Of a DNA stretch of 40,255 nucleotides, positions 7,569 to 30,863 are shown piece by piece. The DNA is taken from IMG/VR virus record IMGVR_UViG_3300028027_000108, positions 1-40,255 of that record; one strand, given 5' to 3'. Positions within the stretch are counted from its first letter, which is position 1. Each line of letters starts with the position of its first letter. The notes beneath the pieces are model-generated. The model searched no databases, was not told the origin of the DNA, and saw only the letters and a program-made list of their open reading frames with translations. The position numbers were made by a program, and so were the translations under genes. The DNA is from a virus.

Positions 7569-8432
7569 TTATTTTAAGTTTTTGTTTTTAGTTCCTAAGT
7601 AGTTGACAATAATATCAAGTGATGATTGTACTGCGCTAAAGTCGTAGGCAATACTAGTCGCACTCTGTACATAAGGTAAAGAGTATAAAGTATTGGTTCT
7701 TATAAAGTTATCTTTAAAGTCTTCGCTTGCGTTTAGTGTACTATTTGATAAACTATTTACATAGCTTTGGTATATAACACTTGATGCTGCATTAGTCCAG
7801 AAGTCAAAAGAGTTTTCATCAAAGCTTCTTACTACTGTAGGTGTTCCTAAGAATGTAAAAGAGGTTGACTTAGTAAACACTTGACCTACATAATATTTCC
7901 CTCCTGCTACTGTAATAAAATCATTAGGTGTTCCTTTTACAATATAAGTTCCTGCTGCTATATTTGTTAACCCTCCTCCTGATGCACTTTCTGTCGTATA
8001 AATTTCGTAATTAACTGTTCTTGCCGAGTCTGCAAATGTTGTAGAGTTCTCGTTTAAATCAGAAGGGTAAAAATTATAATTAGTTATTGTGCTTGGTATT
8101 AGTGTATTGTATGTGCTGTAGTATCCTGTAGAGCTTACTAACAATCCTGAGGTTACTGGTATGGTGTAATTTGAGTGCGCTACAAATACGTCTCCTGAAT
8201 TATAGTTAACACCTTCCAATAGAAGAGTTCCTGTTATTACAAGGTATTCATTATTAGCTACCAAAGCTCCAACTATGCCAGAGTTTAACACACTGTTATA
8301 TGTAGAGAATAAAAACCTAACTGCCTTTACATCAGAAATACTAATTCCTAGTCCAGTGTAGTCAGTACTATCGTATATACCTAAGGTGGTATTTGTACTA
8401 TTGTCAGTTGAGATGATTATATCTGTTGCCAT
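7569..8432 (-). CDS. tail/appendage structural protein, paralogue of the 303-aa protein
   Basis: A 287-aa beta-rich protein. It contains a small repeated module with the pattern YLV-x-GT...Y-x-x-G-x-VF (GVNYNSGDVFVAHSNYTI, and GGKYYVGQVFTKSTSF). The stretch IPVTSGLLVSSTGYYS and the following YEIY segment align with LVPHTTGLVVAA...TTGYYN and YEVY in the 303-aa protein encoded at 10055-10966, so the two look like diverged duplicates. The C-terminal about 80 residues become helical (SSLDIIVNYLGTKN). The likely place is the tail knob or a fibre adaptor; exact role unknown. Confidence 0.5.
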   Translation of the reverse strand: MATDIIISTDNSTNTTLGIYDSTDYTGLGISISDVKAVRFLFSTYNSVLNSGIVGALVANNEYLVITGTLLLEGVNYNSGDVFVAHSNYTIPVTSGLLVSSTGYYSTYNTLIPSTITNYNFYPSDLNENSTTFADSARTVNYEIYTTESASGGGLTNIAAGTYIVKGTPNDFITVAGGKYYVGQVFTKSTSFTFLGTPTVVRSFDENSFDFWTNAASSVIYQSYVNSLSNSTLNASEDFKDNFIRTNTLYSLPYVQSATSIAYDFSAVQSSLDIIVNYLGTKNKNLK

Positions 8433-8434
8433 TA

Positions 8435-9739
8435 CTATCCAGTTGTTATTTTATTCATAATGTACCATCTGTTTGAACCACCATATTTAAGGGTTACACA
8501 ATTATATGCTAAGTTTAAACCTGTGTATGTTGCTGAACCATCTATTTCTTCAATACCTGCGTTAAATACTGATACTGTATTGTTTGTAGCACCTGCTATA
8601 TTTTTAATTATAAATTCATCGCCATTTGCTACTGTAGAAGTATCAGGTAATGTTATTGTTTTACTTGAGGCGTTTACTAAAATAGTTCCTTCTGTGATAG
8701 GTATTGAATAATCTGCCGTAACTGTCTTTATTTTAGAAGTTCTAACAATTAGGTCAGTAGCACTCATTGCTAAGTTACCACTAATAACTATTTCTTCTGT
8801 GCTTCCTGCACCTCCACTAATTCTTCCTAATAATCTTTTAGTTGCACTTATTGCCTGCATTTTAGCGTAAGTAACAACTCCAGCAGCTATTGTTAAAGCA
8901 CCACTTCCTGTAACATCGCCTGTATGAGTGGCATTAGTAACCTTTGCGGTGTTTGCAACTACTGTTGCGTTATTAGTTACTCTTACATCAGTATAATATA
9001 AATTACCACTTTCAGGTATTAAGGCAGTAGTAAGAGAAACAGCACCAGTTAAACTATTAACACTTGAAACACCTGCTGAAAATGTTGTCCAAGTTGCGTT
9101 ATTAGACCCATCTACTATTAAAGCTTTTCCTATATTTACAGTAACACCTGTATCTGTAAGAGCATTTATAGCGTTTTGTCTTGTAGATGCATTAGTTCCT
9201 CCCTTAGCAAAAGACAAAGGAGTAGTTGCTGCCAAAGTATTTACTTCTATGTTTGCTGGAACTACATCTAATTCAAAGTTTGGATTAGTAGGATTAATAC
9301 TAATTTTTGATGAGCCTGCGGTTATAGCTCCTTCTATAATTGCTGAACCTGCATTATTTGTTCTGATAATTCTATTTGCATTTATTGCAGACAATCCTGT
9401 ACCTCCTTTATTAAAAGGAACTACTGGTAAGTCTCCTGATACTAAGGCTCTCATTGTAGGTTTGCCTGAAGCTCCGTCTGGAGAGGCATATACAAGGTTA
9501 GCCGCCTTACTTATTCTTGAGAATGTTATTTCTGGTGTTGTAGTTGGATTAGATACGCTTGCACTAAATAATTCTGATGAAGTATCTGTATCTACTTTTG
9601 TAAAGTTCGTTACAGTCCCTCCACTGCTAGATGTACCTAATAAAGAATTAACAGCAGTCTCCACTATTAGATTATCACTATTGTAATCTGCTGTGGTTAA
9701 TGGTGTACCTGTGTTGGCTCTTGATAACTGTATTGACAT
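8435..9739 (-). CDS. tail fibre protein
   Basis: A 434-aa protein with standard phage tail-fibre features. LVYASPDGASGKPTMRALVS (about residues 82-101) and two copies of the F-x-KGGT motif, FNKGGTG (109-115) and FAKGGTN (177-183), mark trimeric fibre shafts. The C-terminal about 90 residues (SIPITEGTILVNASSKTITL onward, ending in GGSNRWYIM) form a compact beta domain of the type seen at fibre tips. It probably mediates host recognition. It starts a transcription unit with its own promoter about 27 bp upstream. Confidence 0.8.
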   Translation of the reverse strand: MSIQLSRANTGTPLTTADYNSDNLIVETAVNSLLGTSSSGGTVTNFTKVDTDTSSELFSASVSNPTTTPEITFSRISKAANLVYASPDGASGKPTMRALVSGDLPVVPFNKGGTGLSAINANRIIRTNNAGSAIIEGAITAGSSKISINPTNPNFELDVVPANIEVNTLAATTPLSFAKGGTNASTRQNAINALTDTGVTVNIGKALIVDGSNNATWTTFSAGVSSVNSLTGAVSLTTALIPESGNLYYTDVRVTNNATVVANTAKVTNATHTGDVTGSGALTIAAGVVTYAKMQAISATKRLLGRISGGAGSTEEIVISGNLAMSATDLIVRTSKIKTVTADYSIPITEGTILVNASSKTITLPDTSTVANGDEFIIKNIAGATNNTVSVFNAGIEEIDGSATYTGLNLAYNCVTLKYGGSNRWYIMNKITTG

Positions 9740-10984: not shown

Positions 10985-13900
10985 TTAATTTGTTGTTGGT
11001 TTTGCTGCTTCTTGTTGTTTTAATATTTTATTCACTGCACTAGATACCATGTCTACATATTCATCTGTAAGTTTTTCTGATGCTAAAAGTTTTCGAATTT
11101 CCCTAGACTTAGTTCCGCTTTGTTTAATTTTAGAAACAATAAACCTAGATATCTGACTAACGTCATTTTTCTTAATATCTTGTATTTCTTTTTTATATTC
11201 AGGAGTTACTTTAGCTCCTCTTTCTTCAGAAGCTTTTTCTTCTTTTTTTGCTTTTGACTCATCTTTCTTTTCACGATACTGATTTCTCATTTCTTTTTTT
11301 ATTCTTTCGTAAGACTCTATAGGTAAAGAAGATTTAGCTTCAGCTAGTTTTGATGCATCTGAAACAATAGAACTTACTTCTTTTTGAGCGTCTTCATTTG
11401 ACATCTCTTTAATATCTTCAAGTCTATCTATTAAAGTTTCGTACAAATATTTACCTCTTTCTTCTGCGTAACTAAAAAACTCATTATCAGTCATTGCTCT
11501 AAACTTGCCGCTTTCTATATCTATAATATTTGTTGTTTTTATGTTTGGTTTTGTTAAAAATATTTTTTTACTTGTCAGTGTTGCGGTTAAGTCCGTATCT
11601 TCAGATTTAGATGTAAACTTATCTGTGTCTGCAATAGACCTTTGACCCCATATATTAACTCTGTCGTTTAGCATATTTCTAGCAACAGGAATGTCTCTTA
11701 CTAACTCCGCAACTAAACTAGTTCCAACTTCTTTTTCTGGCACGTCAAACGCTCTTTGAACTTCCCTTGCTGACTGAGTGTATAGCGCAGGCAGAACAAA
11801 TCCCTTAACGGTTTTAAATATAGATTTCATTGCGTCATCTACAGCGTCTCCTGCTTCTGTTTCTGTAAGAGCCTTAAGGAATGAATTTATAGATACTAAA
11901 AAAGTACTGTCTAAAAATGTTCTTGATGCGCCAACAGCAGCGAAAGATATTCTATCTAAAAGGTTATCATCTGTATTTTCTTTTCTATACTTTTCATAAT
12001 CTTTTAGGTTTCCAATAAGACTAAACATTACTAATAAAGGACTGTACTGATATGAAATCCAATCGCCATATTTTTTGGTTTTTTTGTTGTAAACTCTAAA
12101 TGAATATGGTTGCCATCCCTCATTTTTAAGACCCTCATTTTTCTTGTATTTACCTGTAGCATTTGCTGTTATTTCTAGTAAAGGCTCATCATCGTCATCT
12201 CCTTTTAAAGTCAACATTAAAACAGCAGCCGACATAGCCAGTCCTACCGTAGCTTTTGTTACTATTTCTACTCTGTATTGGTCTTGCTGCATTTGTGACA
12301 TAGAATCCCACTCTGCTTTAGGTATTCCAAATGCAGAGCCTTGCCTAGCAGCTCTTATGTATCCCCAAGGAGTGTAGTTTATTCCCATGTTAGCTACGTT
12401 TGCAATTACATTTGTAAAAGGCACAACAAATCTAAATATTTTAGTAACACCATTAGTTTCTATTAACTGATTAACTCTCTTAGCTACAGCACCTAGCAAA
12501 CCAGAAGCAGGATGATTAAACGTGTTCCAAGATGCATAAGCATTACTTTCGTCCATTATTTCAGAGCCTCTGCTTTGTTGTACTAATTCAAATACTCTTC
12601 TTTTTTCGTTTGTTTTTATGTTCTTTATTTTTTTTGCTTTTTCAGAACTAGATATATTTTCAGTATTTACCGCATCTATCTCTAGCTGAGCCTCTTCAGA
12701 TGCTTTTAATTTTGCATCAGGAATAGTACTGTCATTTGCGTGTAGTATGTCAAGTGCTCTTTGTTTAATTTTAACACTAGGGTCTAATTTATTTTCATTG
12801 GCAGCCAACATTCTAGCCCACTGATAAGCTCTCATTTCTTTCTGAGTTTCAAACATAATAACATCGGATGCTACCATTAGTCTTCTTACATACTTTAAAT
12901 AATTAGCTGGGTTGTATTTGCCTCCTTTAAATGTTTTTAGTTCTAATGTAGAAGGAATTTCCACTCTTCCTCTGATTGGATTATAACCAGTTTTTAATGA
13001 ACTCCCTGCTTCTAGTATACCTCTATTTATTCCATTTATAATACCTCTAGCCATAAATACTCCTGTTCTAGGGTTTCTTATGGCAGATTCTCCGTAAGAG
13101 AACAATAATTGAGTTGCGTTAGCTATCACGTTAACTAGCTGAGTAGTAAATCCAGATAAAACATTTGCGTACCATATAGACGTTACAACATCCATTAATG
13201 GAATTCCTTTTATTTTAGCTTCGTATCCTAATAAGTCTTCAACTGCCTGTGCTCTTTTTATTCCTTCTGGAGATTCCTCTACTATTGAAGCTAGCCTTTC
13301 TATTTCTGATATTTCTTCTTGAGATAACTTAGCCCAACCCATTTTATCAGCATATGCTTCTACTAAGTCTTGTTCTTTGAATGCACCTAAATTAGTTAGC
13401 TTTAATAATTCTGATTCTAAGTTCTTTAGCTCAGGTTTCTTTCTTTCTTTAGGATTAAATACTGTGTCTAATATTTTCTTTTTCTTTTCTGTGGCTAGTC
13501 TGTCAAACTCTTCTTCTATAGCTTTTGCATATTCTTTAGCCTCATTTTCAGTCAGTTCAGTTTCTGCCATTATTTTTTCTACTAGAGTTCTTTTAGCAGA
13601 ATCTACTACTGTATAGTGTTCTATGGCTATTTTTGAAATAGATAAGCCTAAATCTTTAAGAGCCCCTTTTACACTTTTCTTAGCTTCTCTAGCCCTTCTG
13701 TCTTTGTTCTCCTGTAAGATAGTTGCTTCACTGTCTATTTCCGATGCAGGAATACCTAATTCTTTTGCTGCTTTCTTATAAAGGTCAGCTAAGTATGGTT
13801 TTACCTTATCTCCAAAGTCTTCTATAAGTGCCTCGCTAAATTCTTTAAACTTTCTTGAGCCAGCCTCTAAGTGATATACACCAATAGGAATTAATTGAAC

Positions 13901-14686
13901 AGGTATAGCTGCTGAAAAAGCTTTATTAGCAAGGGCTTTTTTCATCTCCTCGTACTTTGCTTTTGTAATAACCTTATTCTTAGTACCGTAGTCGGCATAG
14001 GTTCTTGCTGCCTTTTTTCTTTTTTCAGAAGGCTTGCCTCCTAGGTTTTCAACTGCCTCGTTTATAGCGTCTTCGTTGGCTTGTTTAAACTTTTCTTTTA
14101 TTTTAGTAAGCTTCTTATCTGCTTTCTCCCTTTTCTTGTTGATGTTGTTTATCATCTTCAACATCTTTCTTAGCTCTCCTTCAGCTGTAAGTGCAGGGAA
14201 CATAGCAAATGCTTGTATGCCTTGTCCAGCCTCTGTCGCAGCAACTACTAGTCTCTCTCTTAAATCATTAGCTTCGTCTAGTCTACCTTCTTTTGATAAT
14301 TTCTTAATTAAAATTTGAGCCATGGTAAACCTAACTCGTAGGTTCATTCCATTCTTCCAGTCATCAACAGCGTATACAGAAGCGTCTAAGCCAAGTTCAT
14401 CTATTAGATTCATTACTTCTTCTACGGTACTCTTATTAGATATCTCTTCGTAATTTATAGCACCTTCAGAAAGTTGTAGGGAAGGATTGTCCTTTAAGAA
14501 TTGTTTCGTTAAACTGCGCTCTTTCATCTTGCCTTTTGTTGGAGCAGGTGCATCTGTAGACAAAGTTATTTTTTTAGGAACAAAACTTCCGTCAGCTACT
14601 AGCTTATCGTACTCACCAGCTGCGAGCAATGCGAAGAATTCGGGTTCAGAATAACGTTTATTTTTGTAGGTGACAAAGCAAGCCAT
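10985..14686 (-). CDS. large internal virion / DNA ejection protein
   Basis: A 1233-aa protein. The N-terminus (MACFVTYKNKRYSEPEFFAL) resembles that of the 1338-aa virion protein and may be a shared virion-targeting segment. Residues about 150-460 are long charged helices. Hydrophobic, membrane-active stretches follow near 505-530 (NVLSGFTTQLVNVIANATQL) and 810-830 (VGLAMSAAVLMLTLKG); between them VVPFTNVIANVANMGINYTP resembles my recollection of the LPD38 region of 'large polyvalent' phage proteins. The C-terminal 250 residues are K/E-rich helices. The pattern suits a protein ejected with DNA that forms a channel through the host envelope. A homologue search would settle the LPD38 call. Confidence 0.65.
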   Translation of the reverse strand: MACFVTYKNKRYSEPEFFALLAAGEYDKLVADGSFVPKKITLSTDAPAPTKGKMKERSLTKQFLKDNPSLQLSEGAINYEEISNKSTVEEVMNLIDELGLDASVYAVDDWKNGMNLRVRFTMAQILIKKLSKEGRLDEANDLRERLVVAATEAGQGIQAFAMFPALTAEGELRKMLKMINNINKKREKADKKLTKIKEKFKQANEDAINEAVENLGGKPSEKRKKAARTYADYGTKNKVITKAKYEEMKKALANKAFSAAIPVQLIPIGVYHLEAGSRKFKEFSEALIEDFGDKVKPYLADLYKKAAKELGIPASEIDSEATILQENKDRRAREAKKSVKGALKDLGLSISKIAIEHYTVVDSAKRTLVEKIMAETELTENEAKEYAKAIEEEFDRLATEKKKKILDTVFNPKERKKPELKNLESELLKLTNLGAFKEQDLVEAYADKMGWAKLSQEEISEIERLASIVEESPEGIKRAQAVEDLLGYEAKIKGIPLMDVVTSIWYANVLSGFTTQLVNVIANATQLLFSYGESAIRNPRTGVFMARGIINGINRGILEAGSSLKTGYNPIRGRVEIPSTLELKTFKGGKYNPANYLKYVRRLMVASDVIMFETQKEMRAYQWARMLAANENKLDPSVKIKQRALDILHANDSTIPDAKLKASEEAQLEIDAVNTENISSSEKAKKIKNIKTNEKRRVFELVQQSRGSEIMDESNAYASWNTFNHPASGLLGAVAKRVNQLIETNGVTKIFRFVVPFTNVIANVANMGINYTPWGYIRAARQGSAFGIPKAEWDSMSQMQQDQYRVEIVTKATVGLAMSAAVLMLTLKGDDDDEPLLEITANATGKYKKNEGLKNEGWQPYSFRVYNKKTKKYGDWISYQYSPLLVMFSLIGNLKDYEKYRKENTDDNLLDRISFAAVGASRTFLDSTFLVSINSFLKALTETEAGDAVDDAMKSIFKTVKGFVLPALYTQSAREVQRAFDVPEKEVGTSLVAELVRDIPVARNMLNDRVNIWGQRSIADTDKFTSKSEDTDLTATLTSKKIFLTKPNIKTTNIIDIESGKFRAMTDNEFFSYAEERGKYLYETLIDRLEDIKEMSNEDAQKEVSSIVSDASKLAEAKSSLPIESYERIKKEMRNQYREKKDESKAKKEEKASEERGAKVTPEYKKEIQDIKKNDVSQISRFIVSKIKQSGTKSREIRKLLASEKLTDEYVDMVSSAVNKILKQQEAAKPTTN

Positions 14687-14712
14687 TTGTTTTTTTATTT
14701 TTTATAATTAGG

Positions 14713-14720
14713 CAAATTTA
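14713..14720 (-). promoter_or_regulatory. possible -7 element for the 1233-aa gene
   Basis: TAAATTTG on the minus strand, 26 bp upstream of the ATG at 14686. No TTG at 18-21 bp, only TTT. It would restart transcription after the structured region and the terminator-like hairpin upstream. Confidence 0.35.
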
Positions 14721-15055
14721 ATGAATTTATATTGAAATCTAAAGTTTTAATACAGCAGTAGCTATATGCGTGAAGGGGAGGGTTTCTTCAGGCATTGGTT
14801 TAGGACTTAAAAGTGGCAAACGCCCTAAACGATATCGGTAAAATAACAAATGGTACACTGCTAAGTACCTTGCGTATGCGGAACGCAGCCCCATCAAGTA
14901 TATCTCTTTCACTTCACGCCCAAGTTGTCAGCTAAACATTGCTTGGAATTTTTATGGGGCTATTATTTTTACATAGTTGTTTTTGTTTGTAGCATTTAAG
15001 TTGCCTAGCTATAAGATATACAATATCATACAATACCTTAGTTGATGGGCATAAA

Positions 15056-15086
15056 AAAACCCAGATAATGCGGATATCTAGGTTTT
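15056..15086 (-). terminator. hairpin terminator downstream of ferritin-like gene and tRNA-like sequence
   Basis: Arms AAAACC-C-AGATA and TATCT-A-GGTTTT around a 7-nt loop. On the minus strand the hairpin is followed by a run of T (about 15059-15053). It could end the ferritin transcript. Its loop (ATGCGGA) is complementary to 15153-15159, so it may instead be a structural hairpin of the candidate RNA. Confidence 0.5.
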
Positions 15087-15208
15087 CTTTATTGCCTATC
15101 TAAAGGCTATTATATTTTTAACGAGAAGAATATACAAATGAAAATCGTTGAATCCGCATTACAACATCACAAATTTAATACTAATCTTTGAAATAGCAAA
15201 TGATAAAA

Positions 15209-15280
15209 GTCATAGGGCATGGAATTGAACCACAATACTAATTATAAACTAGCGTAATTGCCTTTATACGACACCTTGAC
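15209..15280 (-). tRNA. tRNA-like sequence with UAU anticodon loop (degenerate)
   Basis: 72 nt on the minus strand with tRNA layout. Ends GTCAAGG and CCTATGAC pair in seven positions with one bulged A. D-arm CGTA/TACG has GG in its loop. The anticodon arm CTAG/TTAG carries the 7-nt loop TTTATAA, giving U33, anticodon UAU (Ile, AUA codons) and A37. The T-arm has the canonical GG-TTCAATT-CC core. Deviations: acceptor bulge, short variable region, weak anticodon stem, no encoded CCA. It may be a functional phage tRNA, a decayed one, or a tRNA-like domain of the adjacent structured region. The phage uses ATA codons often. Confidence 0.4.
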
Positions 15281-15289
15281 TTAATTTCT

Positions 15290-15784
15290 TTATTTATTCT
15301 CAAAGTACGAGTGTTCTGCTGTTAACTCTCCTGCCTTGTCTAAGTTTTCAAATACTGCACATAAGTCAGTGTAGAATATTATCGCATCATTTTGAATCTG
15401 TAAGTAACCAATTAACTTCTGATACGCTAACTGGTCTACGTTGAACAACTTCATACCTTGCTCTGCATATAACTTACTAACCTCAACCTCTTTAGCCAAA
15501 GCCATTTCTATTAGCTCATACAAGCTCTTACTCTTACATTTAGTTATTCCTATAGCAGGCACTGTGTAGTTATTACCCCTTCCAGAGATATAGTCAGCCC
15601 ATCCCATGAAGTGTTCTTTCTCTTCTATAGCTTCTTGATTAAAGTATTTCTGCGCCATCAAGAATCCTAATCTGTTAGCAGTGATAGCCAATTGATTATA
15701 GAAAGTTGACTGTTCTAATTCTATTTCAGCTAATGGAGCAATAATCTCCATAGCCTCGTCTGATAATTCGTAATATTTATTCAT
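15290..15784 (-). CDS. ferritin-like diiron protein
   Basis: A 164-aa protein that follows the four-helix plan of bacterial non-haem ferritins. E22 (in IELEQSTFY), E55 and H58 (IEEKEHF, the EExxH motif), E99 (AKEVEVSKLY) and Q131 (YLQIQND) sit where the ferroxidase ligands of FtnA lie, and ADYISGRG after helix B matches the ferritin loop. The third-iron-site glutamate of FtnA is replaced by A134. Length is that of a ferritin subunit (about 160-170). It would oxidise and store iron in a 24-mer cage, protect DNA from iron-driven oxidation, or have been recruited to the virion. It has its own promoter, with the ATG 8 bp from the -7 box, and is followed by the tRNA-like sequence. Confidence 0.82.
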   Translation of the reverse strand: MNKYYELSDEAMEIIAPLAEIELEQSTFYNQLAITANRLGFLMAQKYFNQEAIEEKEHFMGWADYISGRGNNYTVPAIGITKCKSKSLYELIEMALAKEVEVSKLYAEQGMKLFNVDQLAYQKLIGYLQIQNDAIIFYTDLCAVFENLDKAGELTAEHSYFENK

Positions 15785-30542: not shown

Positions 30543-30552
30543 GTTTTTTATT

Positions 30553-30696
30553 TTATTTAACCTTTACTAAAATAGTTTTCCCTAGCTTGATAAAATCTAA
30601 GGTTTTTCTTGAGATTGCTTGGTATACAGCTTGAACGCTTATACTCTTTTCCTTGGCGTATTCTAATACACTCTTATAATTTTCTATGTTTTCCAT
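30553..30696 (-). CDS. small helix-turn-helix (excisionase/MerR-like) protein
   Basis: A 47-aa protein. VLEYAKEKSISVQAVYQAIS (residues 10-29) is a helix-turn-helix of the excisionase/MerR-like winged type. The following TLDFIKLGKTILVK is the beta wing, where 'G-x-T-x-x-V' turns are usual. The ATG lies 4 bp below a perfect promoter, so the transcript is probably leaderless. It is the first gene of the replication operon, 10 bp before the DUF6291-like gene. Likely a regulator of the divergent early region or a recombination directionality factor for the serine recombinase; neither is proven. Confidence 0.7.
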   Translation of the reverse strand: MENIENYKSVLEYAKEKSISVQAVYQAISRKTLDFIKLGKTILVKVK

Positions 30697-30700
30697 GTCG

Positions 30701-30730
30701 CAAATGTAGTTTAGCATTTTAAACACGCAA
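30701..30730 (-). promoter_or_regulatory. early leftward promoter
   Basis: On the minus strand TTG (30730-30728), a 19-bp spacer and TACATTTG (30708-30701). The start codon of the 47-aa gene begins 4 bp below the box. It drives the replication operon and diverges from the promoter at 30813-30842. Confidence 0.75.
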
Positions 30731-30737
30731 GCTTTAT

Positions 30738-30812
30738 TTTTAATAATTAATGAAAATCAGCCAATTAAAATTAATAGTAAAATAATAATTTAAAATAATA
30801 ATAATAAATAAT
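30738..30812. other. AT-rich spacer between divergent early promoters, possible origin
   Basis: About 75 bp that is almost pure A and T, with repeated AATTAA and AATAAT units and only a handful of G/C (ATGAAAATCAGCC near 30751). It lies next to the replication initiator-like and helicase genes. This is the composition of a DNA-unwinding element, but no clear iterons are seen. Confidence 0.3.
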
Positions 30813-30842
30813 TTGTTTTTCTCATTTTATGAAATATATTTG
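30813..30842 (+). promoter_or_regulatory. early rightward promoter
   Basis: TTG (30813-30815), a 19-bp spacer and TATATTTG (30835-30842), a perfect match. Predicted start near 30848, leader about 16 nt before the ATG at 30864. It drives the whole right arm; no other strong promoter or terminator is seen until 38575. Confidence 0.75.
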
Positions 30843-30863
30843 CAAAATAAATTACAGAAAAAT

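Follow-up and report, generated by a model that had tools for sequence, protein, structure and literature searches.

The gap at 14687-15289 of the window, a viral record 40,255 bases long, is read here as containing two distinct small RNA elements from a phage of Bacteroidota, a tRNA-like element and a probable small RNA gene, both on the minus strand like the flanking genes. Taken together with the roles proposed for both elements below, this reading is given about an even chance of being right. The window encodes a terminase, a portal and a DnaB-type helicase. The gap is 603 bp long and lies between minus-strand genes 15290-15784 and 10985-14686, so RNA of this operon should be read on the minus strand. 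It contains no open reading frame of at least 60 aa. A small coding gene was rejected because stops occur in every frame, and a 57-aa GTG frame at 14739-14912 had no Pfam match. The earlier note had described this gap as the only one above 300 bp; it is indeed free of genes, but under the chosen gene set a second gap, of 320 bp, separates divergent genes at 30543-30862 and holds a conserved promoter at 30812-30842. The same note had expected a large non-coding RNA in the gap. Non-coding RNA does appear to be present beside the tRNA-like sequence, but it is small (76 and ~113 nt), lies elsewhere in the gap and is on the minus strand. Neither element matches any Rfam family, no description of either was found in the open-licence literature, and little published was found on non-coding RNAs of Bacteroidota-infecting phages.

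The gene upstream of the gap encodes a ferritin-like protein. Its orthologues were found in eight viral contigs, a wider search gave the same eight, and none were found in the bacterial genomes searched. Four related contigs (L002-L005) carry the gene at 90-100% identity, L002 being identical to the window. In distant relatives a different terminator lies behind the ferritin-like gene (L067, 1975-2190; L069, 1984-2110; L070, 1975-2170), with a conserved loop (CATGCCTnTCA..CGATGCACACTT) and a changing stem; it is possibly a bound RNA motif. The features of the region are as follows.

15290-15784, minus strand: ferritin-like gene, 164 aa, among virion genes (Pfam Ferritin PF00210, E 1.4e-7).
15207-15282, minus strand: tRNA-like element, 76 nt (five versions, covariance model R2, sub-threshold Rfam tRNA match).
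15170-15200, minus strand: predicted promoter of the small RNA, TTTG-N19-TAAATTTG, at the same place and with the same 19-base spacing in L003 and L005.
15053-15165, minus strand: probable small RNA gene, ~113 nt (alignment A4, model R1, pair counts and folds).
15147-15165, minus strand: predicted 5' hairpin of the small RNA, GUUG-UAAUGCGGAUU-CAAC, whose loop strand 15152-15160 would pair with the terminator loop.
15094-15107, minus strand: small hairpin GCCU-UUAGAU-AGGC, invariant and so without covariation support.
15053-15086, minus strand: predicted intrinsic terminator, with a loop at 15067-15075 (AUCCGCAUU) that complements the loop of the 5' hairpin.
14740-14960, no strand: variable, GC-rich stretch at the heart of the region first reported, without counterpart in relatives.
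14713-14743, minus strand: probable promoter of gene 10985-14686, TTTA-N19-TAAATTTG, recognised by sequence and conserved in L005.

The window has five promoter sites of Bacteroidota type (TTTG, 17-21 bases, TAnnTTTG), where shuffled sequence would give 2.2; relatives also have these sites in front of genes. The plasmid relatives of the serine recombinase of the window come largely from Bacteroidota genera, e.g. Hymenobacter and Spirosoma. This promoter type and these plasmid relatives suggest that the host of the phage is probably a member of the Bacteroidota. At 81-140 of the window a promoter is followed by a short inverted repeat (TGTTTTACatataGGTAAAACA), kept in L126 and L130, which is likely an operator.

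The tRNA-like sequence that had been noticed next to the reported region is there; it scores 20.2 bits against Rfam tRNA, below the gathering score of 29. It combines a 6-bp outer helix (AAGUCA/UGACUU) and a bulged A with a short acceptor stem, in which a U is bulged out, and has D, anticodon and T arms. In the window and L002-L005 it is bounded by TTAAGTCAAGG and CCCTATGACTTTT and lies right behind the ferritin-like gene. It stays there even when nothing else of the gap is present, as in the close relative L004, in which it almost directly adjoins the gene homologous to 10985-14686, that gene starting ~38 bases past the element. The interior of the element differs strongly among the window and L005, L003, and L004, and all arms are still paired. 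Across five distinct versions, for which the arm layout was made by hand, 86 of 86 arm pairs were formed, compared with 65% when strands were swapped between versions. The outer helix never varies. Covariance model R2, built from three sequences, detected further copies, at a different genomic location, in three phage records that are more distant; these copies score 31.6-35.2 bits, and ordinary phage tRNAs ~20 bits under this model. The element is intercistronic in all records, and in L004 and the distant records it lies just before a start codon. The arms are predicted from five sequences, few for claims of structure. Just before the distant copies there is an odd second tRNA-like sequence with a long variable part (L115, 6913-7001; L114, ~8390-8500, minus strand).

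The element most likely derives from a phage tRNA, since its D-arm sequence is common to tRNA-Thr and tRNA-Asn genes of other phages. Like the products of phage tRNA genes it has a D arm, with GG in the D loop, and a T arm with the loop UUCRAUU (CUCAAUU in one sequence), all pairs of both arms being formed, and the window copy has an anticodon loop of 7 bases (UUUAUAA). Unlike them it has a short acceptor stem with a bulged U, an outer helix in place of the CCA end and, in L003 and L004, an anticodon-end loop of 4 (GAAA) and 6 bases, respectively. A 7-bp acceptor stem with a 7-base anticodon loop is thus not found across the window clade, whose acceptor stem consists of 3-5 bp, the bulged U and one G-C pair. 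The bulged U before the last acceptor pair is present in every copy, as are U.G and G.U as the first two T-stem pairs. In the distant copies CUACC/GGUAG closes UAYGAGA, without U33, and ARAGORN calls one of them tRNA-Ser. One alternative is that the element is simply a decaying tRNA gene, conserved through recent ancestry only; the window copy, with its 7-base loop, could read AUA through a UAU anticodon, its D arm is that of real phage tRNA genes, and phage tRNAs are common. We regard this as unlikely, because all arms remain paired despite the many changes in five versions, the short acceptor stem with its bulged U recurs in every copy, the anticodon ends of L003 and L004 are tetraloop-like, and ARAGORN found no tRNA in the whole window or in the L003 and L004 copies.

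The second element, the small RNA, is common to the window, L003 and L005. It is accessory, since L004 does without it. The conserved structure is enclosed by a promoter and a terminator of its own, as judged by sequence motifs. The -7 box of Flavobacterium psychrophilum promoters extends from -12 to -5 (PMC9723704). When the start is placed by this rule it falls at 15165, the first base of the 5' hairpin; the same is true of L003, and in L005 the two agree within one base. In the three-sequence alignment 98.1% of the cells in the proposed structure are paired, whereas slid versions reach no more than 46%. The loops of the 5' hairpin (AAUGCGGAU) and of the terminator complement each other over 9 bases. 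Both loops have other sequences in L005, which keeps seven of the nine loop-loop pairs, three of them by double compensation. The terminator stem shows three further double compensations, which any terminator would tend to show. Two stems of the small RNA are invariant, and all of the loop compensations come from L005. With three sequences, one of which holds all the loop changes, the evidence for a kissing loop may be called good but not overwhelming.

A target for the loop elsewhere in the phage was considered and rejected. The loop motif of the window and L003 has no match in the record outside the gap, and that of L005 has several 7-base matches elsewhere with no consistent place. For the window and L003 the loop sequence is therefore without an outside partner and would pair most simply with itself, within one molecule or between two. 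Other viruses that contain the 15-mer GCCTTTAGATAGGCA share nothing else, and this match was put down to chance.

The ~113-nt segment could instead be an attenuating leader of gene 10985-14686, in which pairing of the 5' strand to the terminator region would adjust how much transcription continues into this large virion gene. Promoter, structured leader, terminator and gene are all in line, and when a transcript of slightly smaller length is folded with nested pairs, its 5' strand binds the terminator loop and disrupts the terminator. However, this pairing involves the loop and not the stem, so the terminator can still form. In addition, gene 10985-14686 has its own promoter-like site at 14713-14743, which is also present in L005, an endonuclease-like gene follows the segment in L003 instead, and L004 has no such leader. 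For these reasons we do not favor an attenuator and consider it improbable.

The preferred reading is that of a stand-alone small RNA that has a promoter and a terminator of its own and in which the loops of the first and last hairpins complement each other. A kissing pairing, intramolecular or intermolecular, would lock or dimerise this RNA for a regulatory or structural task. Phi29 packaging RNA is a phage RNA of ~120 nt with two complementary loops, and packaging RNAs of this type form rings via loop pairing and bind the portal. The small RNA is predicted to be similar in size and to have two complementary loops as well, but it has no Rfam match, its loops are longer (7-9 bases), one of them is a terminator loop, and the window terminase is of another kind (672 aa, PHROG 6681). 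A bolder version, in which intermolecular loop pairing gives dimers or chains while virions are being made, and the neighbouring tRNA-like element, lacking an anticodon, punctuates the virion operon, is quite doubtful. If such a self-complementary two-loop RNA does exist, it would offer a small and readily testable example of a phage RNA that locks itself or self-assembles.

For both elements, structure, conservation, covariation and the promoter and terminator motifs are read from sequence; that the elements are transcribed and processed, that the loops kiss inside the cell, and what the elements do, we infer. The tRNA-like element is proposed to be an intercistronic processing or stability element. 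A tRNA-derived element of this kind would keep the acceptor-T and D-arm shape and need no anticodon loop. It may mark the end of the ferritin-like message, either through cutting by host RNase P or RNase Z or through protection of the 3' end. If host tRNA enzymes cut the element or protect the end, this would account for its position, for the retention of the tRNA body and for an anticodon loop that can be dispensed with. With its helix extended past the acceptor stem, however, the element differs from normal RNase P substrates. A tRNA shape without decoding is found in tRNA-like processing signals and 3' ends such as those of mascRNA, the tRNA domain of tmRNA and viral tRNA mimics. Likewise, the element is predicted to be a tRNA shape within or ending a longer transcript; unlike these it lacks a CCA end and a tag-coding region, belongs to a DNA phage operon, and is a candidate for processing. 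If the element does keep its fold while losing its anticodon loop, this would point to phages using the tRNA shape for purposes beyond decoding.

Alternatively, the element could be a decoy for host tRNA-handling factors or for tRNA-targeting defence proteins. The tRNA body is kept, and there are reports of phage tRNAs that escape defences which cut tRNAs (PMC10264068, PMC11555353). Copies without an anticodon loop would be of no use against anticodon nucleases, however, and the fixed intergenic place and invariant outer helix suggest action in cis. A decoy is therefore considered very unlikely, and an element that acts in processing or stability is preferred.

The remaining part of the gap, 14740-14960, was the core of the large RNA first proposed. 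Its GC content is 42.5%, compared with 33.5% for the window, which places it in the top 1.6% of 221-nt stretches. The reported GC enrichment thus applies to this stretch and not to the whole of 14700-15180, which at 33.5% equals the window value. The three pseudoknot-type helices named there are exact complements as strings. They were given as plus-strand strings, whereas the operon runs on the minus strand. Short helices are no commoner than chance: 21 helices of 6 or more bp were counted against 30.8 in dinucleotide shuffles, nine of 7 or more against 8.8, and six of 8 or more against 2.7 (P 0.08). The fold of 14750-15000 is unremarkable (z -0.8 on the plus and -1.9 on the minus strand). A 120-nt stretch at 14740 has z -3.4 on the minus strand, a value not beyond those of 80 coding windows (minimum -3.6). 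Folding is strongest in stretches around the terminator, from 15020 (z -4.7 on the minus and -5.2 on the plus strand).

GOLLD and ROOL are phage-encoded non-coding RNAs that often lie near tRNA genes and show intermolecular kissing loops in solved structures; they comprise hundreds of nucleotides and many domains, and many GOLLDs exceed 800 (PMC12286853). The gap shares with them a phage non-coding RNA beside a tRNA-like neighbour. It differs in that the RNA is ~113 nt, with another layout and no Rfam match, and in that the conserved elements are of 76 and ~113 nt and not of several hundred nt with a conserved 3' region. Homo-oligomeric cages are a further mark of the two families. The Rfam comparison suggested in the earlier note gave sub-threshold matches only, with none at the gathering score in the window, and neither GOLLD nor ROOL was among the hits up to E 5 in 14500-15500. 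One large ornate RNA of the GOLLD or ROOL kind across the gap has the phage location, the tRNA-like neighbour and the z of -3.4 at 14740-14859 in its favor, but it is largely refuted and highly improbable, given the lack of an Rfam match, helix counts at chance level, a strong terminator at 15053 that would separate 14740-14960 from the conserved elements, and the fact that the part with the pseudoknots is not conserved, being missing or unrelated in every relative.

Homologous gaps of related phages, which had also been proposed for comparison, hold no counterpart of 14740-14960. When ten related phage records were compared with the gap core, the sole strong match was the promoter-like stretch adjoining gene 10985-14686, and the rest were weak and short. 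A reading of 14750-14850 as a dispersed Bacteroidota repeat was rejected: its viral matches were chance ones inside genes, plasmid searches gave no matches, and phage searches gave only short, weak ones. At the homologous place L003 has an endonuclease-like gene, L005 has unrelated DNA and L004 has nothing. The stretch 14740-14960 is a variable site rather than a conserved RNA, and it looks like inserted DNA.
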